Assembly: GCA_964017185.1 (NCBI GenBank) | Contig: OZ024869.1 | Span: 71,766,315 to 71,830,314 of the forward strand | Direction of reading: 5' to 3' | Origin: Rugalucina vietnamica | Lineage: Eukaryota; Mollusca; Bivalvia; Lucinida; Lucinidae | Length of the DNA: 64,000 nucleotides | In this document: positions 527 through 26,856 of the stretch, in pieces | Layout of the letters: the number at the start of each line of letters is the position of its first letter | Numbering within the stretch: position 1 is the first letter of the stretch | Program-made: the position numbers and the translations under genes | The notes under the pieces: model-generated | Database searches by the model: none | The model's input: only the letters and a program-made list of their open reading frames with translations | What the model was told of the DNA's origin: nothing

Positions 527-724
527 CTTTTCTGTAACAGTAGCATTACACTCCTGTTTGACTGTTGCCAACATATTCTCTAGACGTTCAACGTCTTTCG
601 TCTTCTCAGCAAGCCTCGTTTCCAGTTCAGATTGTTTTGACCTCAGTTGACTTTCACGCTCCCAGAATTTCCCAGAATTCTCTTTCTCCGACTCAATGTC
701 TCGGTTGAGTTTCTTGATTGTCAG
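527..724 (-). CDS. CCDC158: CCDC158 exon 13 (residues 491-556), last exon in window
   Basis: A 198-base exon (66 codons) with acceptor TAAACAG and donor GTTGGA. It encodes LTIKKLNRDIESEKENSGKF, WERESQLRSKQSELETRLAE and KTKDVERLENMLATVKQEC. The last stretch is nearly the human EVQRLEALLKALKSEC motif. The open donor means further exons lie left of the window. Confidence 0.93.
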
Positions 725-3700: not shown

Positions 3701-4971
3701 AATGTAAGCTTTTTACAGACAAGTTAGAAATGGAATGAAAATTTCAAAAAAGAGTAATTTTGTCAAAATTTGACGAAAAGTCTTCAAAAGTTAATCAGGT
3801 GATCTTCTTCCCAGTCCCAACCAGAATACCAAATATGAAGGCTCTAGCTTAAATACTTTTTGAAATATCTTGCACACAAGATTTTCAAATTTTGTTTTAA
3901 AAGGGGCATAACTCCAAAAAGGCGCGTAACTTGGACATAAATACGGGTCAACTATTTTTTCATGGGGAATCTGTATATGAAATTTCAAAACCCTAGCATT
4001 CACCGTTAAAAAGTTTCAAATTTCACCAAAAAGTGGAAAAATTAATCAAAATTTCAAAATTCCATATTTTTGTCAAAATTTCACGGAAAGTTCTCAAAAG
4101 TTAATCAGGTCATCTACTCATCAGCCCCAACCAGTATACTAAATATGAAGGCTATAGCTTGAATACTTTTCGAGATATCTTGCACACAAGATTTTCAAAT
4201 TTTGTTTTAAAAGGGTCATAACTCAAAAAAGGGGCATAACTTGGACATGAAAAAAATATGGGTCAACTATTTTTTCATGAGGAATCTGTAAATGAAATTT
4301 CAAAGCCCTAGCATCCACCGTTCAAAAGTTTCAAATTTCACCGAAAAGTGGAAAAATCAATCAAAATTTCAAAATTCCGTAGTTTTGTCAAAATTTGACG
4401 GAAAGTTCTCAAAAGTTGATCAGGTCATCTACTCAACAGCCCCAACCAGTATACCAAATATGAAGGCTCTAGCTCAAATACTTTTTGAGATATCTTGCAC
4501 ACAATATTTTCAAATTTTGTTTTCAAAGGGACATAACTCAGAAAAGGGGCATAACTTGGACATGAAAAAAAAATATGGGTCAACTATTTTTTCATGAGGA
4601 ATCTGTATATGAAATTTCAAAACCCTAGCATTCACCGTTCAAAAGTTTTAAATTTCACCGAAAAGTGGAAAAATCAATCAAAATTTCAAAACTCCGTAGT
4701 TTTGTCAAAATTTGACGGAAAGTTCTCAAAAGTTGACCAAAACAGCCGCAACCAGTATACCAAATATGAAGGCTCTAGCTTAAATACTTTCCGAGATATC
4801 TTGCACACAAGATTTTCAAATTTTGTTTTCAAAGGGAAATAACTCAGAAAAGGGGCATAACTCGGACAAGAAAAAAAATACGGGTCAACTATTTTTTCAT
4901 GAGGAATACACACATGAAATTTCAAATCCCTAACATTCACCATTCAAAAGTTAACAGACGTACACACGCAC

Positions 4972-5016
<45 letters not shown>

Positions 5017-8000
5017 CCGAAAGCAATATGCCCTTCCAACTTTTTCAAAGTTGGGGGCATAATGACAAAAAATAATCCAAGGATTATATCCAAACCACAT
5101 GCATATCTTCAGACCATGCCCATAACACATGTAAAGTTTTAAATGAATTGACATGAAACTGTAGGAAGAGTTGCGCACACAAGGTATCCACTGCCCATTC
5201 ACTTTCATTGTGAAAATGCCCGAAAAATGGCTAAGTTCAAATTGCGAAAAAAGTGACAAATATTAATCTGAGGATTATATCCAAACCACATGCATATCTT
5301 CAAAGCATGGTCACAACATCTGTAAAGTTTCAAGAGAATCGGAATAAAACTGTAGGAGGAGTTGCGCACACAAGGTACCCACTATCTATTCACTTTATCA
5401 AGAATTAAAAAGGGAAATAACTCTCACAGAATGGGCCCCTAGCCCCTTGAATTTACCTGAAAGAAAAAGTACGGGTCCTCTTAATTTTCATATACAAACT
5501 ACATACCAAATTTCAAGATCCTAGCTCTAACGGTTCCTGACCGAGTGCTCACGCATCACAGACTGACTGACAGACTGTTTGACTGACTGACAGACTGACT
5601 GACAGACTGCACAGACAGACCCAAACCAATATGCCCCCTCAACTTCTTCGAAGTTGGGGGCATAAAAAGAAAACAAAATGTTTAACCTGAATATTTTACT
5701 GACAGAATGAAAATGCTATCAAGTTTCCATGCTATATAACACAGCTTCAAATTAACATAACTCACAACATAGCACAGTTTCTAAGTTTGCATGAATTGCA
5801 TGCAAGTAGTGATGCCATGTGTAAATTTCATTCAATACTTAAGAGAAAATCTGATAGTTCTGTCTTCAAATATAGGTCAAATCATGAAAATCATTATTAA
5901 AAACAAGAATTATAAAACTGCATTATCACAAGTGAAACTACACCCATTAGTGTACCTACTTGGTATGATAGTCTTGTGAGAGGCTCTGTTGATCAGCTGA
6001 TAAACTCTGTCTCAATTCTTCAACCTCAGCCTCCAACTAAAATATAGTAATCATATCAAGTTGATTTCTATGCTTGGCATGGCTATTTCAAGGAAAGAAG
6101 AGCCTTGTGAATATTTTTATTTTCTTTCATTTTAGAACCAAACTTGAATGCACGATTGTTTGTGTGTTTTTGGTCTAAGTAAACTGTGTTATGAGCTTAA
6201 GCTGATTAAAGACCTTGTGGAAGAGAACCTTGTTTCATTCCTATATGGGCTGCTTGTTACTTTGTGTTTTTATTTGGACAGATTCTCTCATCTTTTTGGT
6301 ACCAAAAGCATTTTTTTTTCTTTTTATTGCACCAGTCCATATATGCCTTTTTATTTCATATCATTTTGCCCTCAACCACTCATACCTCTTCTATTCTAGA
6401 TTTCCTTATTTCTACATCTTTGATCATTTCTTGCATGCACCTCTCCAGCGTATGAACCAACATGGAAGGACTCTGACTAGTCGCTGGGTCCGTCTCAAAG
6501 AACGGCTTCCCCCGACGTCTCTCGGCATCAACCAGTATGTGTCGGATCTGAGCTATGGTTGTTTCGGAGATGAAATTCTCTCTCGAGATTCCTTCAGATT
6601 TCCTGGTAGCTTCTGCAAGTGCCTGGAACAAAGTTTAACTCGTTTAAGCCTGGCGTCCCTTTTATGGGACATAGGCAAACAGAATAGCCCCAGATGTGAC
6701 GCCGCAGAACGCGGCGTCCCATCTGGGGCTATTCTGTTTGCTTAAAGGAATTTCATCAAAAAATGGAATAAAAATTCAAAACCACTCCTGATGCCCCTAA
6801 AAATGAAAGTGGACTCACCCAAATAATAACGATGTGAAAATCCATTCGTCATATATGGGTTAAGTTTGAAAGGTTTGGTTGCCATTGGATTTTTATGCTA
6901 CAAGCACCTGACTTATCGTAAATTAACCTGTAAAATGGAAATCATTTCAAGAATTCTTACCTGAAGAGTTCAGTGGCGTTAATCAGTCAACAATTTTTCA
7001 GTCATATCGTAACGGTGCCACCCCTTCCTTGGTAAAATCACTACTATGGAGAATATAGGGTCTTGCTCAGGGACAAAACAGGACAGTTGTAGGTTTTAAA
7101 CCTATGAAGTCTGATCCTATACTATTGAGCAACTATTTTGAAATTTGAAATCACATATGATTGCAAGAATAGTATTATATTTGTACAAACCTGTTCTTGC
7201 AGTTTGAGCTTCTCTTGTTGGTGGTGTAGTGTTGCCTCAAGATTGGCTATCTTACTGGCCTGGCCTGCTGCCTCTTTGTGTCTAGAAAACATATGGTAAT
7301 GTTACAGAACAAAAAAAGAGGTTGCTAAAATTCATTTTATAAATGCAACTATTAGTCACATAAGGCTTCTTGAATCAGAGCACAGTATAATAAGTGCTCT
7401 GACCAACAGCTTTTTAACCACATAAATAATGCAATTCCTCTACTTTCAAAATTCAAACTTTCTGGTGCTTTACGGCAAAGGTTACGTCAGTTCAGTTGGA
7501 CTAAGTCGGCTGGGCGTTGCCAGCAATAGTTGCCATTTGACATTTACGAGCAGGATAAAATGATGTAATGACAAGCCTGAAGACAACATTTATTTATTCT
7601 GATATTTATGAGCAATGTAGACTTCATGCTCGCTTTAGTTGAGCATAAAAAGAACAGGTTACCGGAGGTCTAGAACTGAATCTCTGTTGACCATTGACTC
7701 CTGTAATTTAGCCTTCAGCTCCTCCACAGTGACTCTGAACTGTCTCTTCTGTAACTCACTCTGCTCATTAGACTAAAAAGTAAAAGTATGCAATGTTATA
7801 TGGTTTTTATAATCATCAAAATTAAAAATGGAAAATGCTAGTACATGTAGCAAAATAATATTCAGCTGATAGTCCTTAAAATACATTACAATATCAGATT
7901 CCATGTAATGTAGGCATTTCAGCACTCAGGAGAGCTTTGCATCAAGGAAAACTTTGGTTTAGAAAATTTAACTCAAATTACAGTATACATGTAACATGAT

Positions 8001-11000
8001 AGTTATGAAGATGGTTTGTCACTTTATCCAGTCAGGGATTGTCATTTTAAGCTGATCAGTGCTTCTGCTTTTGCTAAAAGAAACAGTTAGTATCCCTCTT
8101 CCTAGGACTAAAACCTAAAGCCTCTAACGGTCTAACCATCTTCTGTGGCAGTATGGCAGGGAAACCCAGTTTGTGTTGGAACTGGTCGGAAACCTTTGAA
8201 GACAAAGGGGCTCCTTCAACCCTGCTTACCTCAGCGAGTCTTCTCCTCAGATCTGACACCTGTTCCTGGGAATCTTTTAGGGCTTTCTCTAGGTGAGAAC
8301 TGTAATGAGACATATCTCATCTTTATTATTGAAACCTTATTTGAGCCGCGATGCGAGAAAACCGGCTAGAAGCTTGAAATTCCAGATTTAGAAAGAAGAA
8401 AAATTGTATTGTCCAAGTAATGAAAACAAAGGGGCTGATCAGCTGTGCAGTTACTGCACAGCTAATCTGCGCCTTTGTTTTCGCATAGGCAAAAATCCAA
8501 TTTTCTCATCACACTGTTCATTTCATAATTTCATAAATTTTTCATATGAACATCACTGAGGCTTGCCTATGAAAACATGTTAACTAAAGAGAATTACCAA
8601 TAATTTGTTTCAATTTTTCTATAAATAATGCTTTGATTTAATCAGACACATACAACAATTTCACAATCTTACAAAGATCAAACTCCAACAATTCACCAAG
8701 TCTTAAGAAGAAGGCTTTTGATTTTTCTTCTAGAGTTCACACATTCAAAATTACTTACGGAGGACTGATTTCTGCACCAAACCCAGATGATCTCTTGGCA
8801 GCAAACAATTCTGTAGAGGGCAGTGTGGAAAACCCTGTTTTAGAGGGGCTGTTGGGGATGTGAAGCACTGTGCCCACTCTAGAGGTACTGCTGTTGAACC
8901 CTGCTTCTCCCATTAGCTGGGCACCAAGACGATCAGATTCTTCTTTCTGTCTCTCTAGCTGCAATCTGTTGGTAAATTTTATATGGTTAAAGTCATAAAT
9001 TCAACGAAAAATAAAAGAGTCACCGTCAGTGGAGATCATCTTTTCTTCCAACCCAGCATTTGCAACAACAGTGAGTTGAAAACTCTACTTAATTTTGGAT
9101 ATAAATTTTCTACGGAATATCTGAAAGAATGTTACCGGGTACTTTAATGTAAATTTAAAAATTATAATTAAATGTTCTGTTCCAATGCCAGCCCATATGT
9201 GTACAATGAAGTGTTGATATCTAAATTGTGTCTGAAAGTGGGATAGCTTACCGTAAATCAGAGATTGTCTTTTGTTCTGCTGAAATATCTACTAATGCTG
9301 ATAGGGCACTGGCTGAGGTAGCTGAGCTAAACTTTGGCATCTGTAAAAAGCAACAGACCATGACATTCCGAGGACATCAGTATTAGTTGAAATGCTGTAT
9401 TCAGAGTCTTCAAACAGGTCCAAAAATCATATTAGACTGTACATGCAATATGGATTTGAATTTCTTCTCTTTTTTATTTATTTTCTTACTGTTTATTTTA
9501 TTTTTTTCTTATTTTTGGTATGGAATCTTTGCATGCTACTAAAAACTAATGTTGACACAAGGGATCTGTGAAAATAGAAAAATAACAAAAAAAGTTTAAC
9601 TTCTTGTAAACAGATTTAATGGCCCAGGCCCATTCCAAATATTTTTCATTGCTAACTTTGTTAAATTCAAAATTTAGCCACTCACCCCATACCTGATCAA
9701 AAATAAATTGACTCAGTATATTATGAAGATAAAGAATGAACAGGGCTCATTTGTCATTAACAATTGACAATTTGTCATTAACAATTGGACAATTTTAATC
9801 AGGGATTTTCCTACCTTTTCAAAACAGGGACCCGGGACCAATGATTTTGGGAAAATAATACGTATATCAGTCAAATTGGGAAAACGGATACAAAACAGAA
9901 CAGGGGATAATATGCATATTTGGTGTTAATTTGAGGATATTTCTCAAAAAAAAATATTTTGAGGGTATGATACAACAAATGAACAAGAATTTATTTATTA
10001 TTTTGGGATTTTTTACTTGAAAATTGGGAAATTTTACACATTTTTTCAATTGGGAAAGGGGCCTGTAATGGGCCCCATAATCAGCCCAGGAAAATCCCTG
10101 TTAATATTTAATATTAAAGGACTAAATGTATTATAAATGTATATAACTGAAACTTAATGTTTATTATAAACTTTATATCTTCAAAAAAAAAAACCAAAAA
10201 AAAAAAAAAATATGCTTTTATAATGGACAGATCTGCAAATGTAGCAGTGTTATTTAGACACACATGAATCAAAAACTCAAAGTACATTGTACAAATTTCT
10301 TACCTCTGTTTTATCTGCTGTTGATGTTCCTGTTATATCTGAGAAAGTAGTGGATGGTACTGAAAATAAGTATTACATGTATCATGTTGAAATTGATCCC
10401 TCAAGAATCAAACTTGGTCCCTTTTCAAAGTTTATTTTTATTTTTTCGTTTGGATGAAAACTGACATGATCTGCTGGGAAGCCTTGTTATAATGCTAACA
10501 TAATATTGATTGACTTAAAATATTTAAAATAAAAATTGAAAAAAAGTTACTACAAATTTTGTAGAAAAATGCATACTCGGCTAAAACACAATCAGGGTGG
10601 ACATTTGGGTTTCACTTTTGTCAAAAAATGAATTTTAAGTGGGGCTTATTTAAATGGCATTTTTGTTATCCAAGACATCTTGTAGGTGCAAAAACACAGA
10701 AATTTTCATTTTCTTTTCAGGCTTTCAAACATTTTACCATATCTATACCCCTAAGGCTTAGGGGCCTACATATTTGAAAATATAACATGCATAATGGCTA
10801 ATGCAATTTATCTTGTATTGAGAATTTTTACTTTTGGGACACTTTTTTGTGTCAGATAACAGATTTTATCTGGAAATTCTGTCAAAATTTTCAACATATG
10901 GCAAATATGAAAATGTGTCGTGTCCGTAGCCCTATCTATTTTAAGACAGTTTTGTCACAAGTATTAACGTGCAATATTCATATCTACTGGTACATTTATG

Positions 11001-12299
11001 ACTTTTAATGGTGTTCTTGTTTGTTTACAACCCAAAACAAAATGAGATGAGCTTAAAATGATCATTTTAAGCAAACAACAAAAATGGGGGCTACGGACAC
11101 GACAGGGCTACGGACAACATAGTTACCGCGATATCTGATGAAACCATTCAGCTAGCCACAAAATGTTTATTATAAAACGTTTAATGGCTGGACCCGCAAA
11201 TGAAAGTGAAGATCATGTTTATATTGACCATTGTTAACATACTTTAATAGGGGCTTGAAAATAGGGGGCTACGGACACGACATTTACATGGTGTTACAAA
11301 ATTGCATCTGGCAGATTCCACAATCACTTTATATTCAATAAGGGCTTTCCCACCAAAATTCAAAAAGTATCTTAGGCTTAATATGGCATTTGTGATTTTA
11401 TATTTTGCAGTTTATTAAGTTTGGAAGCCCCTGATTTGGGGATATTAAAAAAGCCAAAATGTATAACAAAGGGCTACTTTTAAGAAAAGCTCTTGGGAAT
11501 TTATACAAAGGCAAGTACCAATGTATTTATCACCTCAGATAAGAGTTAGGGTATTCCTTTTGAATTTCTGACATAAATTTATTGGCTAAAGATGAAATTA
11601 CAATAGCTGGTGCCTTGTAAAATAACAGAAAATTTGAAGTGAAACTTTATAACACTCAAAAATGGCCCAATTTTAGCCTTTTGATTAGGCAGTAAACCGT
11701 TCCTCTACTAATAACCCACACATATTATATATCACTGGAAAGGTTGTGAAATTTCCTATATAGCTATGACAATAACATCATTCTAGGAGTGCACCAGGGC
11801 AAAATACTGGCGTATAACATGTATTTTGTGAAATGTCCACCCTGATTGTGTTTTAGCCGACAGTTGTATGTGTAAGTTGTTTGGTTTTATTTTCTCTTTT
11901 TTTTCCCTTTTTTCCCTTTCTCTTTTCTTTTTTGCTTGATATATTGTTCTATATGCCATGCCTCATGATGTCTGAATACGGTACATGTATTTTGCTCTTC
12001 CTACAAGCTGTAATATAAACTTTGCATCAAAATCTACTTAAAAAAGTTTGCTAACATGAACATGTCCAGGCTTGACTTCAGATCAATAATAACAAAACAA
12101 ACTTTAACTAACCAAATCCTGTTGATGAATCTGATCTCAGTTTGTTTCCTTCTGCTTCCAAACGCTGGATCTGATTAAGCAGTTCCTTTGCTGTTGGTCC
12201 CCTTCTCTCAGGTTTTGGAGATTTTGTGGGGCTTCCAAAAATCCCACCTGAGGCCCCTTGAGGAGAAGATGCAATTGAAAATCCCAAAGAAGACGCCAT
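527..12299 (-). CDS. CCDC158: CCDC158-like coiled-coil protein gene, N-terminal 556 codons in 13 exons, 3' end off the window
   Basis: Thirteen minus-strand exons, each bounded by AG acceptor and GT donor, join with matching phases into 556 uninterrupted codons. The product has a Ser/Pro/Gly-rich head (about residues 1-180) followed by almost continuous heptad-rich coiled coil. Recognition rests on segments resembling vertebrate CCDC158 in the same order: an IRHILVDAERRRGKP stretch (human IRSILVDFEEASGKK), a SEHERQMQQANERASNARKQ stretch (human SEHEVEITGLTEKASSARSQ) and RLENMLATVKQEC (human RLEALLKALKSEC). Human CCDC158 is roughly twice this length, so about half the protein lies beyond position 1. 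The function of the family is poorly defined; a structural coiled-coil role is inference. The neighbouring divergent Shroom gene, as in human, strengthens the identification. Confidence 0.9.
832..851. repeat. G20 homopolymer
   Basis: Twenty consecutive G on the plus strand, in a CCDC158 intron. Confidence 0.95.
960..1079 (-). CDS. CCDC158: CCDC158 exon 12 (residues 451-490)
   Basis: A 120-base exon (40 codons, phase 0 at both ends) with acceptor TTTTCTAG and donor GTTTGT. It encodes RDKLEKTASETERETTKLRS and then ERDEALKQQAITEGKLTELQ. Human CCDC158 has SELTEARTERDQFSQESGNL at the matching place. Confidence 0.92.
1131..1378 (-). mobile_element. tRNA-derived SINE (group B)
   Basis: Reverse orientation: a B-box-like GGATTCAAGTCCTAGTC, then the group's conserved tail (GTCATGTCTGACA..., AATGTCCCAATCAACAGC). 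Related copies lie at 24636, 26995, 54106 and 62206. Confidence 0.65.
1691..1805 (-). CDS. CCDC158: CCDC158 exon 11 (residues 412-450)
   Basis: A 115-base exon with acceptor CTCCTGCAG and donor GTTTGT. Coiled coil: SQHDQQLKMKEESVGDLENK followed by IKHLREELQEEREKYQAK. The phase joins exactly to exons 10 and 12. Confidence 0.92.
2041..2244 (-). mobile_element. tRNA-derived SINE (group A)
   Basis: Reverse orientation of the element best seen at 19717. The B-box GGATTCAAGCCCCACAC and the tail CTTGAAAGGGATGCAAAACTG are recognisable, with a short A-rich 3' end. Confidence 0.75.
2513..2623 (-). CDS. CCDC158: CCDC158 exon 10 (residues 375-411)
   Basis: A 111-base exon with acceptor AATTTCAG and donor GTTAGT. 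It encodes ITQMTSEHERQMQQANERAS and NARKQATTLQSQLSMI, closely parallel to human ISEHEVEITGLTEKASSARS. The 3.3-kb intron between this exon and exon 9 is filled by tandem Helentron-like units (3645-5668). Confidence 0.93.
3645..5063 (+). mobile_element. Helentron/pearl-like element, family i, copy 1
   Basis: Layout: a small hairpin (GTGTTTATGAAACAC), TATGCCCCCAAC, about four tandem cores of about 314 bp (3740-4965), a CAGA microsatellite (4969-5014), then AAGCCGAAAGCAATATGCCC and a terminal hairpin CCAACTTTTTCAAAGTTGG ending GGGGGCATAA. The asymmetric inverted pair TATGCCCCCAAC / GTTGGGGGCATA plus tandem cores, a microsatellite and no target duplication fit bivalve 'pearl' elements, later grouped with Helentron-associated elements. 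Open frames in the cores are not genes. It lies inside CCDC158 intron 9. Confidence 0.75.
5064..5668 (+). mobile_element. Helentron/pearl-like element related to family i
   Basis: Directly follows copy 1. It has two cores sharing GGATTATATCCAAACCACATG, a CTGA/CAGA microsatellite (5560-5615), then CCAATATGCCCCCTCAAC and the hairpin AACTTCTTCGAAGTT ending GGGGGCATAAAAAG. Confidence 0.65.
5960..6036 (-). CDS. CCDC158: CCDC158 exon 9 (residues 350-374)
   Basis: A 77-base exon with acceptor ATATTTTAG and donor GTAGGT. It encodes LEAEVEELRQSLSADQQSLS plus QDYHT, and the final AA is completed to Lys by exon 10. It corresponds to the human QLEALKSESQNKIELLLQQH region. Confidence 0.9.
6386..6622 (-). 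CDS. CCDC158: CCDC158 exon 8 (residues 271-349), best conserved segment
   Basis: A 237-base exon (79 codons, phase 0 at both ends) with acceptor GTTCCAG and donor GTATGA. It carries TTIAQIRHILVDAERRRGKP, the clearest match to vertebrate CCDC158, followed by a segment in which the coiled coil is interrupted by FFETDPATSQSPSM. A helix with MLVHTLERCMQEMIKDVEIR then follows. A Thr-Ser-Gln-Ser-Pro site breaks the heptads, so this may be a hinge. Confidence 0.93.
6648..6859. mobile_element. 212-bp TTAA-flanked hairpin MITE, copy 1
   Basis: Flanked by TTAA (6644-6647 and 6860-6863). It contains a long palindrome: GCAAACAGAATAGCCCCAGATG and its inverse around a GACGCCGC/GCGGCGTC inner stem. A copy of exactly the same length lies at 39209. 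The TTAA duplication is typical of piggyBac or Kolobok derivatives. Confidence 0.8.
7191..7281 (-). CDS. CCDC158: CCDC158 exon 7 (residues 240-270)
   Basis: A 91-base exon with acceptor TTTTCTAG and donor GTTTGT. It encodes HKEAAGQASKIANLEATLHH plus a Gln/Lys/Glu-rich tail, and is predicted coiled coil. The phase is consistent on both sides. Confidence 0.9.
7498..7640. repeat. Degenerate relative of the GAGGTTATAAAAC MITE
   Basis: CATTTACGAGCAGGATAAAAT and AGTTGAGCATAAAA resemble the interior and end of the element at 134-352. It is too diverged to bound. Confidence 0.35.
7663..7772 (-). CDS. CCDC158: CCDC158 exon 6 (residues 204-239)
   Basis: A 110-base exon with acceptor TTTTTAG and donor GTAACC. 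The protein is a heptad-rich helix (SNEQSELQKRQFRVTVEELK onward, then NRDSVLDLR) that parallels the human ...VIDLQTKLQEMQMERDAMADIR region. It ends two bases into an Arg codon. Confidence 0.9.
8230..8299 (-). CDS. CCDC158: CCDC158 exon 5 (residues 180-203)
   Basis: A 70-base exon between acceptor CATTACAG and donor GTAAGC. It encodes SHLEKALKDSQEQVSDLRRR and LAE, the entry into the long coiled coil. Human CCDC158 has a comparable SHQVKDLQRRL segment. The open frame continues into the intron to 8074, but the donor and the phase of exon 6 mark the boundary. Confidence 0.9.
8343..8507 (+). mobile_element. GAGCC MITE, copy a (internally deleted)
   Basis: It starts GAGCCGCGATGCGAGAAAACC and carries the palindromic core GCTGATCAGCTGTGCAG / CTGCACAGCTAATCTGC, flanked by GAAAACAAAG and CTTTGTTTTC. 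The second quarter of the element is missing. Confidence 0.8.
8759..8965 (-). CDS. CCDC158: CCDC158 exon 4 (residues 111-179)
   Basis: A 207-base exon. It begins with a charged helix (LQLERQKEESDRLGAQL) and continues with a Ser/Thr/Gly-rich linker that includes NSPSKTGF, another SP site. Donor GTAAGT. It ends with CC, completed to Pro by exon 5. Confidence 0.87.
9252..9340 (-). CDS. CCDC158: CCDC158 exon 3 (residues 82-110)
   Basis: An 89-base exon with acceptor TTTTACAG and donor GTAAGC. It encodes MPKFSSATSASALSALVDI and then SAEQKTISDLR, ending two bases into an Arg codon. It starts in phase 0 with ATG, so an internal start here is possible but not required. Confidence 0.82.
10304..10359 (-). 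CDS. CCDC158: CCDC158 exon 2 (residues 63-81)
   Basis: A 56-base exon with acceptor TTTTCAG and donor GTAAGA. Two bases complete a Val codon from exon 1, followed by 18 codons rich in Ser and Thr (PSTTFSDITGTSTADKTE). Low-complexity linker. It is supported mainly by splice signals and exact phase with both neighbours. Confidence 0.8.
10577..11860. mobile_element. 1.28-kb TIR element in CCDC158 intron 1
   Basis: Perfect 30-bp inverted ends (TCGGCTAAAACACAATCAGG onward through GTGGACATTT). No target duplication is clear. The interior carries CTACGGACACGACA three times: inverted at 10917-10935 and direct at about 11090 and 11268, with an extra partial copy just after the second. No transposase was seen. 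Confidence 0.85.
12113..12299 (-). CDS. CCDC158: CCDC158 exon 1 (start codon, residues 1-62)
   Basis: The ATG is at 12299-12297 and the donor reads GTTAGT (complement of 12107-12112). The first about 35 residues are Ser/Gly/Pro rich, with SP/TP-like sites (GSPTKSPKP) that could be proline-directed phosphorylation targets. A short amphipathic stretch follows (ELLNQIQRLEAEGNKL) that looks like the first coiled coil. The exon ends one base into a codon, and exon 2 supplies the other two. The start context has G at +4 but C at -3, so it is moderate. No upstream in-frame ATG was chosen because the alternative reading through 12388 uses another frame. Confidence 0.88.
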
Positions 12300-13253
12300 T
12301 TGAAAAGATCAGGCTGGCTGGAAGGCTTCAATGGATAAATATCTTCATAAATAAATAGTTTGGCTAAATATAAGACAATGCAAAGCAAGGAAATCTGCAG
12401 TTAAACCGAAAAACGGCGTTTGTAGCAACAGTTTACATTTTTGTTTTCATTTCCGGTAAGGGGCATAACTCCAATTTTATGATAAAATCCGGTACGGTGG
12501 TCCGTTAAAACACCCCGCCAACTTCTGAGACAGTCATTCTTTGGTTGTACAATATTGTAAACGTCGGTACTCTACTAAATAGGCACGGTAAATGTTTGGA
12601 CTATCAGTGCACTTCAAACTACACAAATAGAGATGTATGTAAATGAGCTCTCTCTCTCTCAAGCACTACAGCCTGGGTTCGACCCCCAAGGCAGGTACTG
12701 GTCCATTTTACGGTTTTGCCTTTAATGCCATGAGTGGAAAGTTTAGATAAAAGTTTTAGATGATAAAATGATAGTCATAGGGAAAATGAATTCTCCAGGG
12801 CATCACTATAGGCCATACATCTTGTGTATTGTTTGTCGAAGACATCTCAGATCTTTTTTGACCTGCATCCGGGGTTTTCCCATATGGAAGATGAAAAAGG
12901 CAACAAACTGCATCTCTTTAAAAAGTACTTTAAGATGATGTTTTTTTACTATACAATCCATCATTGGTCCTTATTGTTATTCATTTCAATCGCTTTTTGT
13001 GTGACGAAAGCTTTTGCAAAGAAAAAATAAAATCTAAAATCTGTGGATTTTGAAATTTTATGATCCATGCAGGCCATCGTAGATAAGATGCGTTCGGATT
13101 TTCTCCATTAAATATAGGCGTGTTCGGATCAAAGGCTCAGCTCAACAGAACGAGTCGTTTCGGTCCAGCGACTCTTAGGAACTCTCGCCGTAAGGACATT
13201 TGAAAAGCATTTCCTCTCAGTCATGTCTGGAGTTGGCTCTGCAAGAGTCATAC

Positions 13254-13254
<1 letters not shown>

Positions 13255-13301
<47 letters not shown>

Positions 13302-13302
13302 C
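13255..13302. repeat. (TGTC)n microsatellite
   Basis: About 12 tandem TGTC units. It creates the spurious CLSVCLSVCLSV reading frame. Confidence 0.95.
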
Positions 13303-13570
13303 TGCATCCTGTACCCTATTGCAGAAAAGATATTAATCTTCGACAATTATCTTTTTTAAAGATGTTTCTTGTTAATCATGAGATGTCCCGGTACATGTAC
13401 GTCTTAAGTTGGGTGCTGGGGTCAGGTATTTATCTTTGTCATGAGACACTTTACCCGAGTGAATCTTGTAAAAGAAAGTTAAGGAAGACTTCACCCTGCG
13501 GTCCTCCAGGGATGGACGCTAGAGTGCCGGACGGTGTCTTTGTTAGGAGAGAGCTTCAGCGAAATAGATA

Positions 13571-14302
13571 ACGATGCGTACTGCGTATGTACGCACGATT
13601 TTTCGCTCTGTACGCATAAAAAATTCAGACCTGTGCGTACCATGTACGCAGTAAAAATCAGCGGTACGCTAACAGTTTTCGGTTTTATGCGTACTCAGAT
13701 AAAATACCTTTAAAATTTTCACCAAAATGATAAATTTTTCAACTAGTTTTGTCTGGCTGCTTGTCAACAATCGAAAAGTAGATACAATATTAATGCAGCT
13801 TTTGATCGTTCCATATTATATATAATGCAATATATTATGTAGTTATACCATATGCGTGCTCGCCGTTCAGTACTTTGACCAGACAAATTGTTTATCAAAG
13901 GTTTATTCATGAAGTTTAATGATAGTCTGTCACTTTGGTTTATTGAATAGGCATTTTGCATTGATTTCTGGTCATTGTTTTCAATTTAAAACTTGATGTA
14001 TCCATTTTCTACAGCCATCCCAGTCTCTAATGTTTTCCTCATTTGTGTCTCTTATTATCTAGGCAGGGGACAAAAGTATAGTTAAACATGCCTAAATGAT
14101 AGAATGACATGTTATTACAGGATTATCAACCAGTTTACTTAAATTTTCATACTCGATTAAATGGTCTTATCCATACGTGTACCTTTATCTATAAGTTTGA
14201 TTCTAAATGAGAGGTTTGAATAAGAATCCTCAGAAAACTTGTACGCAGTTGTATTGTCGGTACGCACTGAACATTTATTTTGATGCGTACAGTACGCATT
14301 GT
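13571..14302. mobile_element. Fold-back element built on GTACGC
   Basis: Ends ACGATGCGTACT and AGTACGCATTGT (inverted, one mismatch). About ten copies of GTACGC/GCGTAC cluster in the outer about 120 bp on each side, and a plain AT-rich middle separates them. It lies in the intergenic region between the two genes. Confidence 0.6.
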
Positions 14303-14639
14303 GAAAAATAATTATCTACATCACTGAGCTTGTCATCTTGCTCTTATTGCATGTTGTAAATTTTTTGTTGTAATATTTTGTCACTTTTGTGCTGTGCTTT
14401 CTTTTCCAGCTTGTGTCTGGGTTGAGATTTAGATTATATGCTTATTTTGTATATAATCACATGCAGCATTGCGACTAATACCCACATGCCCACAAAATGA
14501 ATGAATGAAAGAATGCGTGGCTGTTGTGTTTTATGGCGGTATTTTGAAGATATTCAAGTTTCTGTTTTAGTGTTGTAGCTCGGGTCTAATAATTCTAGAT
14601 CCGAGATTGTTGGAACAGACAAACTGCACGGAAATGTGA

Positions 14640-14775
14640 GGTCTAATTTTTCGTCGAAGAGGAGGGTTGTACTATCTGTGCAGCGAAAACAAAGGTGCTG
14701 ATCAGCTTACTGCGAAGCTGATCTGCACCTTTGTTTTCGCCTAAGCATTTTGTTGGTTTTCTTATGTAGCGGCTC
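14640..14775 (+). mobile_element. GAGCC MITE, copy b (5' truncated)
   Basis: Palindromic core GCTGATCAGCTTACTGCGAAG..., then the right arm GTTGGTTTTCTTATGTAGC and GGCTC. Confidence 0.75.
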
Positions 14776-15067
14776 ACAATAGTAAAAATGTTTGAAATGC
14801 GACAAGTTGAAGTTAAAGCTCAGCGCAAAAATTAAAAAGAATATTTGAATCACAGACCCAGAAACGGAATGGGTTTCTTTTGAACCCTTTACCATGTTTA
14901 TGGCAGCTTTGATTTCTTTTGAATAATAAAAAAAAAAAATCCGGAACCACGCATGCTACATGTAGATGAGATCAAAACAACATGTTCAAGTAATACAATA
15001 ATATCGTTTTACATGGAAAACCTTGAGTCGCGCTCTTATTCAAACCCCATTTTGCAAAATAGTTTAC

Positions 15068-15070
<3 letters not shown>

Positions 15071-15103
<33 letters not shown>
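15071..15103. repeat. T33 homopolymer
   Basis: Thirty-three consecutive T. Confidence 0.95.
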
Positions 15104-15256
15104 CAGGTCGAATTAAGATACTTATTGACTATGTTTCTCTCCAGTATGGGATGTACTAGCATTTCGTCTTTGCCGTCAAATCATATCATACGGTTTGGTA
15201 TTAATATAGGGATCAAATATGATTTTCCATTCATTAACATTTGCTAGGTCCCGAGG

Positions 15257-15307
15257 GGAGTGTTGAAAAACGAGGGCTACGCCGCCTTCGGTTTTCAACA
15301 CTCATTT
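15257..15307. repeat. Imperfect stem-loop GAGTGTTGAAAA / TTTTCAACACTC
   Basis: A 12-bp perfect outer stem with a GC-rich interior. A fold-back repeat of unknown type, about 1.1 kb upstream of the Shroom ATG. Confidence 0.6.
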
Positions 15308-16017
15308 TGGAACCAAGAAACGAAAGAAATAATGGCAGCCTCATCACATTTTCATACGCGTAAAAGCTTGTTCAGGGCGGATTTCTGTTACTCGTTATCA
15401 GCACGTGTTTTGCGTGGCACCCGGTAACGAGCAGGCACGCGCGCACCGTAGAATTGCTATATTAATACATGTATGGTTTTCTTTTCATTTTAAAATATGT
15501 GGCTGTTAATATCGTTTGATGCGGATATTTATGCAATAATATTTTTATATGATGTATCAATATATACATGTAGTTTCTGGTTGCGGTAATATCATACGTA
15601 GGCCTACATAGTCTCCCCACACGACTGTTTTATACATTCCTCGTGCACCGGGCTGTATAATACTTTTACATATAATTTTAAATGGGTTTGATTGAAATTG
15701 TCATTGACCAAATAAATAAACTTATCCACAGAGTCAACAAAATATGCGGAACTACCACGCCAAAAACACAGATTTAGGTTAAATTGCTGATGTCGTGGGT
15801 TATAATGTCTTTCTCCGGTATGAATTGATATGATTTTGTGTATGATTCGTATTTTCAATGCGATGACTATATGGGTCCTTCATTTCATTCAGGCTAGAAT
15901 TAATCCACTTAGTATCTAAATTGCGAACAACTTGTTATAAAATGCTTGTGATAGTGCACACGATTTATTTATTTTTTGACAATGTCTCTAGATATTTTCT
16001 TTAGTTAAACAAACAAC

Positions 16018-16102
16018 AAATTAAAACAATCAAATAAAATGATTTTATGAGATAAGAACAAAAAATTAAAACAGTCAAATAAAATGATTTTATGAGATAA
16101 GA
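16018..16102. repeat. Tandem duplication, about 37-bp units
   Basis: AATTAAAACAATCAAATAAA plus ATGATTTTATGAGATAAG occurs twice, with one base different (CAATC / CAGTC), separated by a few bases. Confidence 0.85.
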
Positions 16103-16404
16103 TGGTCTAATAAAAATAAGGTCCCTCTATGGTTCACTTGCGCCAGACATTTTTAATCATTTATGGCGCGCTACTGTAGACGGTGGCGGGCGGATTAAAC
16201 TCTCTAAAATAGACTATAGAAAAAGTGTAAACACGCTTCAAAAAGTCATCTCAGGTGTATTGCGGATCCCATTGATGTGACAGACGATTAGTACAGGTGA
16301 AAACATGATACGGGAATGTCTGATGTCATTAGAAGGATGATTCGGTTATCTGTGATAATGTGACATTTCTTTAATTGGATTTTATTTGTTTTTAATTGGC
16401 AATT

Positions 16405-16596
16405 ATGAGTGGCGATGAGGCAGATGAATCTTCGGTTGGGGACACGAGTTCTGAAGAAGAAGAGGGACCGCTGCCTGTCAGCCCCTTCAAATCAGGGACA
16501 GATGAGCCGTTGAAGGTTGTCATTAAAGGAGGAAAGCCATGGGGTTTTGAGATCAAGGGTGGAACGGAAGACAAAGCACCTTTGCAGATTTCTAAG
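16405..16596 (+). CDS. shroom: Shroom exon 1: acidic N-terminus and first half of PDZ
   Basis: The ATG at 16405 has A at -3 and an in-frame TAA twelve bases upstream (16393-16395), which fixes the start unless an upstream exon exists. Residues 1-20 are Asp/Glu/Ser rich with an EEEE run. Residues 36-64 start the PDZ domain: LKVVIKGGKPWGFEIKGG (beta strands around the PWGF ligand loop), then APLQISK. The donor at 16597 reads GTAGTT, which is weak but usable. The open frame beyond it runs only 13 codons into the intron. Confidence 0.88.
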
Positions 16597-19500: not shown

Positions 19501-22500
19501 ACATCTACTATAATAATAGTAGTCTAGCAAGTTTCATTTGACAAAATAATGAAAAAATAGCAAACAAAATTAATCTGCTGAATGTTAGTTAAAAGACATT
19601 GTGCACATACAGTGTGTGCTTCAAAGTATGTCACAAGCTTTTAGAAGTGTCTGTCCTCAACTCAACTGATGTCAATACTTAAACTCTGATCGAGCACCCC
19701 CATCCCCCCAACCCCCAGTGGCTGAGCGGTTAAGAGCACTGTTTCTTAATCACTCGATCATCTCACCACTGTGTTTGGTGTGGGTTTGAGCCCCGCACTG
19801 GCCACATGTGAGACAAGTTCTGCTTGCGGGTGTGCCAGGTGTTTTTTCTCGGGGGTTCTCCCGTTTTCGCCCACCTACTGATTGGACCATCTCATAATTA
19901 TGAGCTGCAATAATCTGGAAAGGGATAAAAAATTTAATTAAAAAAAAACAAACAAAAAAACTCTGATCGGGGAAAAAAACAAAAACAAGAAAAACTCTGA
20001 TCGTGAGTCAATGTTTGTCCTTTGTTTTTGGATTCTTACATGTAATGTACCAGTCATTTGTAACCACTGCCCCTCACATACAGGGAAGGGTGGGGATTGT
20101 GAATTTTCAGCTTCAGTGCCCTGCCATAAGCCCCACCAGCAGGGGATAAACTGGAGGTAAAAACTTTGCCCTGCCCTTTGCAACAGAAAATCTCCCTTGG
20201 GTAATGATCCTAATGTTTTAAAAAGCCCTGTCATTTCCCCTTAAAAAGTAATTTCACATCAATTTTAAGTAATTGCCCCTCACTTTAGCCAGCTATCCCC
20301 CACCCATCACCGCATATGGGGGCAGTGGTTACAAATGACTTGTACATAAAGCACTGTACAAATGCAAAATACTCCACAAAAAATTCTAAGGGCCACTATA
20401 TTATTTTCCATATATAGCAATGTTAAGACACCCAAATTAAACCCATATTAAATGGACATCCCAAAGGACGCAGAATATCCGTTTCTTTTGCATTATTTTA
20501 GGTATTGTCCTAAAGTAAATGACTACAAGACATTTGAAAAAGGAAACGCCATGCCAAAGCCCATAGAACAGTTTTGGCATTTTTTGAAAATAATGAAATT
20601 ATGGCATTTTTCTGAAAATCCATAGATTCACAAAAATTCAACTCGTGTTCCATTTTTCCTTAAAGGTCAGTCTAAAATGCATTGCGGTAGATGTTGTTTG
20701 TGTCAAATTTTTGCCAGTGATGGTCATGTTTGAGCTAATTTTTTTAAAAAAATGCAGTTTTTTAGCCAAATTTAAAATTTACAAAAAACATCTTTCGGGA
20801 TTTTGACATGACATTTCCGGTTTCAAATTTCTTATAATCAGTAACTACACACCGTACATACGGCTCGTCAAATTCCAACTGGTACGTCAAATTCCAGATG
20901 TTTATGTCAGCGCGTGCGTTTTGGCGGGTAAATTATTTTTGTTGTTTTTTTCTTGTTTTATTATACTTTAGCTAATGGTTTCAAAAGAAAATAATAGTCG
21001 GCAGTCTTGTGTGGACATACATGCATCAGTACATACAGGTGTCATGGTCAGCTTATCAGTGGATTGGCGAAAACATTGCACGAAAGTCTTAAAATGGCAC
21101 GTTTTCAGAAAACATCCATACTTTTTGCCAAATATTTCCATAACTAGAAATAATTGAAAGTCGCTTGCTCGAATATATATAGCTTAGTATCTATTTAAAA
21201 GCCTGATTTAAACTTTTATTCAAATTAATCACAACTATTGATAGCGCAGCTCATTCTTTTGCACCATGTGTGATTTTACATGATACGAACCATGACAGTC
21301 GTTTTATACTTGAAAGACCAGACGGAAAATAGCTTTTGATACGTCAAATAACAGACGTAAACACGACTTTGGATACGTGTCGCATCAGACGTGTTGAGTG
21401 CGATTATTTCAAATACCCATGGCACCCTGGCATTGTTTGGCCTTCTTAAGCGGTCAACTTGGAAGTATACGTTCAAAAATGGCCACCTTTAAGACACACG
21501 ACGTTGATTCACTTTATCAACATTTGCTCAAAATGTTGAAACCGTAGAATCAACATTAAGACACACATTGTTAAAATAATATTAAAATAATGTTGTTTCG
21601 GTCAACCTTTAAACATTGTTGAATCAATTCGTTTCACTGAATCAACATTGATTCTACAACATTGTTTCAAAGTTGATTGAATCAACATTGGTTCGAAATT
21701 GTTTCAACTTTGTGTGTCTGCTGTTGAGTTTCCACTCAAACACAGTATAACTTTATGAGGGTGATATAGTGGTTGGGGTTTGAAACCTGATTGTCTCAGT
21801 TCTTGATCCTTGGTTAACCTTATATTAAAGGCGCTGATAGTCAACGACCTTAACCACGGCCTGTTGTGTGGTCGTTTGATCTAGTGGGTAGTTAGTGCCC
21901 GTCATCCTCCAGAGGTTGTAAAGCATCAATTCAAACAATCAAAAACACATGTATTTGTTCCGTTGGTATAAAAATTAAATTCCATCAAAGAAGCGCATTG
22001 GCAAACAAATAAAGCACAGGTTATGCCATGGTGTTTCTAGGGCGAAGACTCAACCGAGCGAATGCGTGAAGACACCTGATGCCTAACAACGTCCCTGGAC
22101 ATTGGAGCATAAGGAAACCAACAATCAGTTTGAACCCTGGTATGCCCAGGCACAGACCGCAAAGTTCAGTTCCGGCCCATGCCATACTGAATTTATAATC
22201 AAAACAAGTAAAAGCTTTAACAAAAAGCTTGGTCTGCGCTTCACATATAATAACTAGAATGTCAAAGAATCTGACCGTACTCCCATTTTATCATGGTTCA
22301 TGTGACTGAACAGAAATAAAACGCTGCGCGGTCAAAACATTCATACCTGACAATCGACCGTCACAATACTGTCGGTTCATTCATTCCGTTGTGGCTTGGA
22401 TAGAATGTAATTGGCTGCGCGGCAGGTGTGGCGCGGTCAAAGCTTTCATACCGTCACAATACCGTTGGTTAATTTCATTCCGTTGTTTCTTAGATATAAT

Positions 22501-25500: not shown

Positions 25501-26856
25501 AACAAGTATTTATGGGTTTATACTTGTCAAAATTGTGCAGTCCGGTCAATAGCTTATAGTTCTATGTTGTTTGCTTACAAATGTGCAGTCCAGTCATTAG
25601 CAAGTAGTTGTGGGTTATTTGCTAACAATTATGCAGTCTGATCAATAGCTACTATTAACAGGTTACTTTCTACCGATTGCACAGTCTGGTCTTTATGTAG
25701 TAGTTAAATAGTAATTGCTAACAATTGCACAGTCACTAAATAGTTTGTAGCTGTGGCTTTTTACTTATTGCACACTCTGGTCAACAGTTTGTATTTACGG
25801 GTTTTTTGCTTATAATTGCCTTCTAACAAGTCAATTGCGCAGACTGGTCAAAGGCTAGTAGTTATGGATTACTTCAACTTGCTAACAATTATGCAGTCTG
25901 ATCTATAAAGATAGGTTACTTTTTATGCATTGCACAATCTGTTCAACAGTTTGTAGTTACGGTTTCTTGCTTATTATTGCCCAGTCTGGTCAATTCAACA
26001 ATGATTTAGGGTCACTTGCCACCACTTGCGCAGTCTAGTCAATAGCTAGCAGTTATGGGCTACCTTTTAACAAATGTGCAGTTTGGTCAATAGTTTGAAG
26101 TTACTCCGTTGCTTATAAACGCACATACATTGCCTATAAACGCACAGACTGGTCAAAATTAAAAAGAGTTCAGTTAAGGATCTACACATTTTATTCTTAA
26201 ACCACTATGTAAATATCCCTGCTGTGTGGGGGCCATTAAGTGGTCTGTAGGGAATCAGATAAGGACCATTAAAAACAAATAAATGTCAATCAAATTTGAG
26301 ATACCTTGGATGCTGCAGTGCGAGTTAGACCAGTCTGAAACATTGGATCAGAAGAAGGTAGAATTTGTCAATAGAAAGAAATAATTACAATTACTAGAAA
26401 TGAACTTGTATCATATTAAATATGCACATTTTCAAACATAAGCATGTTTCAGATTGTAGCCAGTCTATCCGAACAGGTCTGACACAAACCAGTCTGTACA
26501 GTCACAGGAGAAGGCGAGACGCTTGAAATTTTAGGTCTAGGAAAAAGAAGGATTGTACTATCCGTGTATCGAAAACAAAGGCGCTGATCAGCTTCGCAAT
26601 TATTGCGAAGCTGATCTGCACCTTTGTTTTCGCCTAGCTATGCAAATTGTTGGTTTTCTGATGCAGGGGCTCATTTTTTCTGTAAATGATGCATCCTATG
26701 TTTGTAGATTGAGTCTGATGGTAAAGCGGCTGTGGATGGACAACTACAGATCGGTGACTACATCATCAGTATTAATGATGTCGGATGCTCCTCTAAGGTT
26801 GAGGCAGAACAACTCATCCAGTGTGCGTTCAGGACCCTCACTCTACTAGTCTGGCG
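16405..26856 (+). CDS. shroom: Shroom-family actin/ROCK scaffold gene, first two coding exons (acidic N-terminus plus PDZ domain)
   Basis: Exons 16405-16596 (64 codons, phase 0 donor) and 26708-26856 (49 codons plus 2 bases) join in frame into one PDZ domain. Its carboxylate-binding loop is PWGF, as in vertebrate Shroom proteins (APWGFTLKGG), followed by PLQISK and IESDGKAAVDGQLQIGD. The exon junction falls after ISK, at the corresponding place in the human SHROOM3 sequence (IISK/VEEGGK). Shroom proteins bind F-actin and, through the C-terminal ASD2 domain, Rho kinase, driving apical constriction; those later domains are not in this window. PDLIM-family PDZ domains also carry PWGF, but the EA...TL.LLV.R end and the CCDC158 neighbour favour Shroom. 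Confidence 0.85.
16740..16990. repeat. Degenerate fold-back-like repeat rich in GATCTG/ATCCAGAT
   Basis: Multiple short inverted words (GATCCGGATC, GATTAATC, ATCCAGAT, TCTGGATTA) lie in 250 bp just inside Shroom intron 1. The boundaries are not clear. Confidence 0.4.
17049..17210 (-). mobile_element. tRNA-derived SINE (group A), 5' truncated
   Basis: Reverse orientation. The tail and middle of the element are present (GAAAAACCACCTGACACACC, GTCTCACATGTG), but the tRNA-like head is missing. Confidence 0.7.
17313..17546 (-). mobile_element. GAGCC MITE, copy c
   Basis: Full length in reverse orientation, GAGCC...GGCTC, with core GAAGCTGATCAGCGCCTTTG. Only 49 bp separate it from copy d in the opposite orientation. 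Confidence 0.9.
17596..17829 (+). mobile_element. GAGCC MITE, copy d
   Basis: Full length, 234 bp. The ends GAGCCACCTCGTGGAAAA and TTTTCCCATGGGGCGGCTC are inverted. Head-to-head neighbour of copy c. Confidence 0.9.
18165..18290 (-). mobile_element. tRNA-like SINE fragment
   Basis: Reverse orientation: a box-A-like TAGCGTAGTGGATAACAC and box-B GAGGTTCAAACCCG are readable on the minus strand. It is a different group from A and B. Confidence 0.55.
18957..19184 (+). mobile_element. GAGCC MITE, copy e, with 24-bp flanking direct repeats
   Basis: Typical left arm and palindromic core; the right end is degraded (TAATGCAA). It is flanked exactly by a 24-bp direct repeat CTTGAGAAATAGTAATGACT+ACTT at 18933-18956 and 19185-19208. 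Confidence 0.8.
19717..19960 (+). mobile_element. tRNA-derived SINE (group A), full-length reference copy
   Basis: The head GTGGCTGAGCGGTTAAGAGC (box A) and GGGTTTGAGCCCCGCAC (box B) look like a tRNA with the Leu/Ser pattern. The conserved body TGCCAGGTGTTTTTTCTCGG follows, then CTGGAAAGGGAT and an A-rich tail. Confidence 0.85.
20046..20346. mobile_element. PIF/Harbinger-like MITE, copy 1
   Basis: TIR TGTACCAGTCATTTGTAACC and its inverse. TAA target duplication at 20043-20045 and 20347-20349. The interior is rich in short C and G tracts. Three-base TWA duplications are the hallmark of PIF/Harbinger. Confidence 0.85.
21491..21719. mobile_element. Fold-back MITE built on TTGATTC/GAATCAA
   Basis: Ends AGACACAC/GTGTGTCT. 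The interior holds about ten copies of AACATT, GAATCAAC or TTGATTC in alternating orientation. It is nested in the 3.18-kb element. Confidence 0.7.
22322..22512. repeat. Diverged tandem duplication of about 100 bp
   Basis: GCGCGGTCAAAACATTCATA... and GCGCGGTCAAAGCTTTCATA... are followed in both by GTCACAATAC, CATTCCGTTGT and AGATA/GATAGAATG. Confidence 0.7.
23061..23580. repeat. 144-bp identical direct repeats around a 229-bp spacer (TRIM-like candidate)
   Basis: 23061-23205 and 23435-23580 are identical over about 144 bases (from AAATTATAACTGAGATCC to GAAATTTTGCA). TG...CA ends can be drawn (TGAGATCC...TTTTGCA), so a terminal-repeat retrotransposon in miniature is possible. A duplication within the host element is the alternative. 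Confidence 0.6.
24352..24572 (+). mobile_element. GAGCC MITE, copy f
   Basis: GAGCCGTGCCATG...GACGCAGCTC with ATGT target duplications at 24348-24351 and 24573-24576. Core GCTGATCAGCTGTGCAG. Confidence 0.9.
24636..24850 (+). mobile_element. tRNA-derived SINE (group B)
   Basis: TGTCGGTAGTGGTAGCGTGT (box A region), GGGCTCAAACCCCACTG (box B), then CATCCCAACATGACTGAAAA and a CAAACAAAC tail. Confidence 0.75.
25235..26160. repeat. Minisatellite, about 48-bp unit built on CAGTCTGGTCAATAGCTTGT
   Basis: About 19 diverged units, each with CAGTCTGGTCAA, a GTAGTTATGGGTTACTTGCT stretch and AACAATTGCA. It lies in Shroom intron 1, about 0.5 kb before exon 2. Confidence 0.85.
26467..26672 (+). mobile_element. 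GAGCC MITE, copy g
   Basis: The left end is lost. The core GCTGATCAGCTTCGCAAT / ATTGCGAAGCTGATC and the right end GATGCAGGGGCTC are intact. It ends 36 bp before the acceptor-side start of Shroom exon 2. Confidence 0.85.
26708..26856 (+). CDS. shroom: Shroom exon 2: second half of PDZ
   Basis: Acceptor TTTGTAG, donor GTAAGT at 26857. It encodes IESDGKAAVDGQLQIGDYII, SINDVGCSSKVEAEQLIQCA and FRTLTLLVW, then CG (phase 2). The GDYIISIND stretch is the usual PDZ beta-strand/turn, and EAEQLI is the helix lining the peptide groove. A GAGCC-family MITE (26467-26672) ends only 36 bases before the exon, so the branch-point and pyrimidine region is partly repeat-derived or squeezed. Confidence 0.9.

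Follow-up and report, generated by a model that had tools for sequence, protein, structure and literature searches.

Ancient metazoan microsynteny was reportedly treated by Irimia et al. in 2012. In such microsyntenic or genomic regulatory blocks, unrelated neighbouring genes are described as being kept together by regulatory elements of one gene that lie in or near the other (PMC8851819, PMC9023564), and blocks of at least three genes number 275 in a squid and 216 in a scallop (PMC9023564). A second arrangement is that of head-to-head protein-coding genes in chordates, whose ancestral bidirectional promoters are set by mapped starts or 5'-to-5' neighbours (PMC6292497). Here, we describe a divergent pair of genes, CCDC158 and Shroom, in the lucinid bivalve Rugalucina vietnamica. 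The pair lies in a window of 64,000 nucleotides (C1:71766315-71830314, contig OZ024869.1) from an assembly of 1.09 Gb in 47 contigs. Flanks of 70 kb on the left and 130 kb on the right were joined to the window, giving 264 kb; coordinates follow the window numbering, and negative positions lie left of its edge.

The pair is like the ancient microsynteny blocks in that unrelated neighbours appear to have been kept together over very long times; those blocks are explained by regulatory elements, and none was identified here. It shares its head-to-head protein-coding genes with the chordate promoters, but here only start codons are placed, 4.1 kb apart. Since hundreds of microsyntenic blocks are known, the CCDC158-Shroom pair would be one more of a known sort, and possibly it already stands in a published microsynteny table. 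Among the titles listed from the open-licence literature, none concerned CCDC158-Shroom synteny in invertebrates; CCDC158 combined with head-to-head gave nothing, and combined with synteny or bidirectional gave unrelated titles only. To judge by titles, the literature on CCDC158 together with SHROOM3 consists of association, cattle, tumour and similar work.

The closest counterpart is human 4q21.1, with the order FAM47E-STBD1-CCDC158-SHROOM3. CCDC158 adjoins SHROOM3 there, and a linkage block with FAM47E, STBD1 and CCDC158 is reported to take in the first SHROOM3 exons as well (PMC12142803). Human SHROOM3 therefore has its 5' end facing CCDC158, as does Shroom in the bivalve. Human CCDC158 is presumably a minus-strand gene, with about 13 kb between it and SHROOM3, in which case the human pair is divergent too. 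An earlier reading of the window from its letters (the sequence-only reading) had pointed to these human neighbours; their adjacency and the side of the SHROOM3 5' end stand on the source just cited, and their divergence depends on the presumed strand of human CCDC158. A difference is that one Shroom gene was found here, whereas vertebrates carry four.

CCDC158 and Shroom are adjacent and divergent

CCDC158, on the minus strand, and Shroom, on the plus strand, are present, adjacent and divergent, and both the identity of the genes and their arrangement are secure. The CCDC158 start codon lies at 12299 and that of Shroom at 16405. The head-to-head adjacency and both identities (CCDC158 by PF15921, Shroom by a Shroom-type PDZ domain together with ASD2) bear out the sequence-only reading. 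The two genes are unrelated to each other and each is apparently single-copy. Their exons, and the region between them, are as follows.

12113-12299, minus: CCDC158 exon 1, the first coding exon found (ATG 12299); placed by phase only, donor gttagt, no Pfam match alone
8759-8954, minus: CCDC158 exon 2; phase chain, weak acceptor (-3.5), outside the Pfam match
8230-8299, minus: CCDC158 exon 3; phase chain; the best PF15921 stretch starts here, at residue 129
7663-7772, minus: CCDC158 exon 4; phase chain, within the PF15921 match
7191-7281, minus: CCDC158 exon 5; phase chain, within the PF15921 match
6386-6622, minus: CCDC158 exon 6; phase chain, within the PF15921 match, no family alone
5960-6036, minus: CCDC158 exon 7; phase chain, within the PF15921 match
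2513-2623, minus: CCDC158 exon 8; with exon 9 PF15921 E 2.5e-10, weak donor (-1.0)
1691-1805, minus: CCDC158 exon 9; with exon 8 PF15921 E 2.5e-10, phase chain
960-1079, minus: CCDC158 exon 10; phase chain, within the PF15921 match
527-724, minus: CCDC158 exon 11; phase chain, alone PF15921 E 0.002
-379 to -17800, minus: five further CCDC158 exons; phase chain, left of the window
12300-16404, no strand: CpG-retaining intergenic region with no recognised gene, 4105 bp between the start codons
16405-16596, plus: Shroom exon 1, the first coding exon found (ATG 16405) and start of the PDZ domain; donor gtagtt
26708-26856, plus: Shroom exon 2, end of the PDZ domain; acceptor TTTGTAG, donor GTAAGT, phase fitting exon 1
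93751-97663, 118020-118685 and 123879 to about 125874, plus: long low-complexity Shroom exons, outside the window
128145-128246, 130022-130195 and 130590-130846, plus: Shroom ASD2 exons, about 112 kb downstream, outside the window

CCDC158 is a long coiled-coil protein. Its model comprises 16 coding exons in consistent phase, from the ATG at 12299 to -17800; where 13 joined exons had been claimed, 11 are supported inside the window and 16 when the left flank is included. The left bound given earlier, 527, is the end of the last exon in the window. The joined exons encode 892 residues and match PF15921 with E 5.8e-78 (263.3 bits against a curated cut-off of 27), the best of 2 stretches aligning residues 129-772 with positions 74-704 of the 1112 in the profile. 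The sole other family at E ≤ 0.01 for the joined protein was Rab11-FIP3 (0.0052, under its cut-off). When four single CCDC158 peptides were compared with Pfam, one exceeded the PF15921 cut-off (exons 8 and 9), one matched weakly and two had no match; exon 11 alone ranked DegS (E 0.0016) above PF15921, both under cut-off. A PF15921 search of the assembly (E up to 10) returned four matches, three at the locus (one above cut-off) and one on contig C12 (E 2.8), and no convincing second copy of CCDC158. The exon next after exon 11 was found in the genome search with E 1.7e-8, and exon 8 with E 0.033, under cut-off. One of the genome matches crosses a stop, which we read as the match overrunning an exon end into the intron.

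Two splice sites in this chain are weak, the exon 2 acceptor and the exon 8 donor, and because exons 1 and 2 fall outside the Pfam match, it is phase and splice sites that fix the left boundary of the gap. The model is incomplete at its C-terminus, which was not found: a loose pattern search to -70000 gave no convincing final exon, and the last chained exon ends at -17800. Judged by the human protein, a short exon may be missing between -1754 and -3187. A CCDC158 intron holds a tandem array at 3734-4952 (315-bp unit, 3.9 copies, 90% matches), and frames that by eye resemble those of the array appear again at about 40.2-41.2 kb. Near the last CCDC158 exon, a 4-kb block (about -17500 to -13400) has a ratio of observed to expected CpG (CpG o/e) of 0.99, and is perhaps another promoter or young repeats.

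Shroom is a PDZ/ASD2 protein that recruits Rho-kinase for apical constriction. Exons 1 and 2, when joined, encode a PDZ domain (PF00595, E 9.6e-11). Against Protein Data Bank (PDB) chains that are one PDZ domain long, the best match was human SHROOM4 (2edp, 60.2 bits) and the next PDLIM7 (47.3 bits). Among all PDB chains, PSD-95 (721 residues) came top at 66.8 bits, a score that is the sum of three 18-25-bit matches, and four two-domain PSD-95 chains scored about 50 bits against the same query. On these scores, we assign the PDZ domain to the Shroom type. The three ASD2 exons joined match PF08687 with E 1.5e-51 and, in the PDB, Shroom2 (5f5p, E 6e-36) and Shroom (3thf, E 1.8e-20), which we take to be the human and the fly protein, respectively. 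The start of ASD2 was seen weakly in the 124-126-kb frame (E 0.00024, under cut-off).

An ASD2 search of the assembly (E up to 1) gave three matches, all at the locus and on the plus strand, two of them above cut-off, and no convincing second Shroom copy; a single Shroom gene is expected in an animal without the vertebrate duplications. Strand, order and the presence of ASD2 at this locus only suggest that PDZ and ASD2 belong to one gene, with a span of about 114 kb. Position 26856, which had been given as the right end, is therefore not the end of Shroom: the gene runs on to about 130846. The actin-binding ASD1 motif was not found in the 118-kb exon (E up to 0.01); scans of the 94-98-kb exon (1221 codons) and the 124-126-kb exon (624 codons), both with E up to 0.1, and a separate one of 803 codons of the 94-98-kb exon were likewise negative, the smaller Shroom exons not having been scanned. 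Comparison of the ASD2 protein with viral_contigs and genome_contigs yielded 9 and 56 pattern matches, respectively, and no relative. A Shroom intron outside the window contains a tandem-repeat stretch (64433-65446) that stays open in several reading frames of both strands, the longest of 338 codons.

The gap between the start codons

The right end of the gap had been placed at 16404, in agreement with the Shroom ATG at 16405. None of the 26 open frames of at least 50 codons wholly inside the gap scored above cut-off against Pfam (best E 0.013). The gap has a CpG o/e of 0.96, compared to a median of 0.53 for 520 sliding 4.1-kb windows over the 264 kb; four of the 520 reach the value of the gap, the background being the local 264 kb and some of the sliding windows overlapping the gap itself. 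With non-overlapping windows at 21 offsets, 0 or 1 of the 63 or 64 windows per offset reached it. In 1-kb bins, CpG o/e is high at 13000 (1.03) and at 15000 (1.29), with a dip at 14000 (0.76). Matches elsewhere in the 264 kb, simple repeats excluded, cover 13.8% of the gap, and the CpG o/e is 1.01 once repeats are removed; the earlier description of the region as loaded with repeats thus fails for the gap itself. The gap fits a promoter-bearing region in a genome that is losing CpG elsewhere, and its CpG retention would point to an absence of methylation.

A bacterial promoter scan of the gap came out close to chance, with 20 sites against 16.0 ± 4.0 in shuffled sequence; the model is a bacterial one and not meaningful for an animal. 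Several smaller features lie within the gap: a CTGT array at 13253-13301, a run of 33 T at 15071-15103, and at 16012-16102, about 300 bp upstream of the Shroom ATG, a tandem duplication of 45 bp whose copies are 95-96% alike. At 14645-14793 is a piece of a very common dispersed repeat, with frames like ENKGADQLRSNCEADQRLCFRY; as many as 93 local BLAST matches in the 264 kb overlap this piece.

Explanations for the adjacency

We consider it likely that the adjacency was inherited from a common ancestor, because the same two genes are neighbours in two lineages and because chance would rarely produce this, by the arithmetic given below. The explanation that we favour, with a probability of about 0.45, is that the divergent pair was inherited and has been kept together by two promoters in one regulatory domain. 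The adjacency would then predate the split from the vertebrate lineage, and the two genes would remain neighbours since their promoters occupy the same domain. Regulatory elements, both within the gap and in the long introns of Shroom, may act on the two genes; alternatively, they may be placed where a break would sever Shroom from its enhancers. We consider a promoter at each end of the gap to be more probable than a single bidirectional core. In favour of this explanation stand the identities of the two genes, each with no convincing second copy, the same neighbours in human and the high CpG o/e of the gap with its two peaks.

Human data bear on the idea of a shared domain. Most risk variants at the locus are reported to sit in the first intron of SHROOM3, and a question raised there is whether the effect of SHROOM3 variants falls on SHROOM3 itself or on a neighbouring gene, for example CCDC158 (PMC12142795). 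Five SHROOM3 variants (76472865-76490987, build 38) are associated with lower CCDC158 expression in 7 or 8 GTEx tissues; four of them also go with higher SHROOM3 expression in kidney, and all five with lower FAM47E and higher STBD1 (PMC12186986). Such effects of SHROOM3 variants on CCDC158 would fit a shared regulatory domain.

Several points weigh against shared regulation, or against the ancestry on which it builds. High CpG is expected at any promoter, so its height in the gap is silent on promoter sharing, and a 1-kb bin at 21000, in a Shroom intron, also has a CpG o/e of 0.92. The comparison covers two lineages, this genome and human, and the shared divergence depends on the presumed minus strand of human CCDC158. 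The variant effects run in opposite directions, in different tissues, and extend to FAM47E and STBD1, so the effect is neither plain co-regulation nor specific to the pair. Moreover, 27 haplotype variants are reported without a SHROOM3 expression association, which the authors of that source blame on low adult expression (PMC12142803).

Regulation as the cause is nevertheless the leading reading, with neutral persistence close behind. Should the pair prove ancestral and maintained by regulation, it would let a human locus linked to chronic kidney disease be viewed from outside, and elements retained beside the pair in invertebrates would merit testing. A bolder version seems improbable to us, namely that the pair is pan-bilaterian with elements acting on both genes, that the two proteins serve one apical epithelial program, and that the association of human SHROOM3 with kidney disease in part reflects a regulatory unit that is over 500 million years old.

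Under neutral persistence, a tenable if somewhat doubtful alternative, the pair was inherited and has been kept since few breaks fell in the short gap, with no regulatory link. The gap, at just 4.1 kb, is a small target in a stretch with few recognised genes: the nearest one to the right of Shroom is at 141 kb, and to the left none was recognised down to -70 kb, a flank read by eye and not scanned against Pfam. Retention is also not rare, as 216 metazoan microsyntenies are reported in the bivalve Mizuhopecten (PMC9023564). On the other hand, the septins, one of which neighbours shroom3 in jawed vertebrates, are here 45.7 Mb off or on other contigs, so that breaks seem to have hit around the pair if the orthologue of the vertebrate neighbour is among them. 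If persistence was neutral, the pair is one more among some hundreds of old gene neighbourhoods.

It is unlikely that one bidirectional promoter core drives both genes. The head-to-head arrangement, a gap with nothing recognised in it and its CpG retention would suit such a core, but the start codons are 4.1 kb apart and there are two CpG highs with a dip between them. Bidirectional promoters are usually spaced under 1 kb, and Shroom is not known as a housekeeping gene. There are 372 putative ancestral bidirectional promoters reported in chordates, and those of amphioxus are enriched in housekeeping genes (PMC6292497).

An independent origin of the adjacency, by chance, here and in vertebrates is very improbable. 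The pair was singled out of a long window with hindsight, and two lineages were compared, which leaves some room for coincidence; by our own arithmetic, however, with 25,000 genes assumed, two named genes would be neighbours with a probability of about 8e-5, or about 1.4e-3 if both were confined to one of about 18 large contigs, and the shared orientation lowers the odds about fourfold. Equally hard to credit is that the genes are misidentified or that the first CCDC158 exons belong to an intervening third gene: CCDC158 exons 1 and 2 do lie outside the Pfam match, the exon 2 acceptor is weak, and about 67 kb with one short unconfirmed candidate (70205-70332) separate the PDZ exons from the next large Shroom exon at 93.7 kb, but phase is consistent across 16 exons, the PDZ domain is Shroom-type, ASD2 was found only at this locus, and the 45 frames of at least 95 codons starting at 36-116 kb revealed by eye no other conserved gene.

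Neighbouring genes and flanking sequence

In jawed vertebrates, shroom3, septin11, sowahb and ccni are reported to be syntenic with one galectin (PMC10343441), and in chicken shroom3 and sowahb adjoin a galectin (PMC4224342). Septin exon matches in the bivalve assembly (n = 19) fall at C13:7.4 Mb, C13:37.4 Mb, C9:23.3 Mb and C1:26.05 Mb, the last being the nearest on the contig of Shroom. An extension of the vertebrate shroom3 neighbourhood to this locus was rejected for septin, with none near; SOWAH and cyclin I were not searched. The locus thus differs from that of jawed vertebrates in its distant septins and in the first gene past Shroom, which has a tRNA-binding domain. As no septin is nearby, and if one of the four loci holds the orthologue of the vertebrate septin, CCDC158 and Shroom may have stayed together longer than that neighbour stayed with them.

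Rfam scans (gathering scores) and tRNA scans of the window gave no match. The tRNA-binding domain at 141452-141841 is followed further right by an alpha/beta hydrolase near 171.6 kb and a secretin-family receptor near 192-194 kb. From CCDC158 leftwards to -70 kb, no gene was recognised by eye except retroelement-like frames. These include a frame of 1217 codons on the minus strand (-44980 to -41330), by eye a reverse transcriptase of the long interspersed nuclear element (LINE) type, and a long plus-strand frame (-65277 to -62511) that resembles a Gypsy-type element, again by eye. Elsewhere in the assembly, no mitochondrial frame was seen by eye in the first 1-3 kb of five small contigs. C46:1-1000 holds a frame of 246 codons, open under table 5, in repeat-like sequence which by eye resembles open frames of the window.

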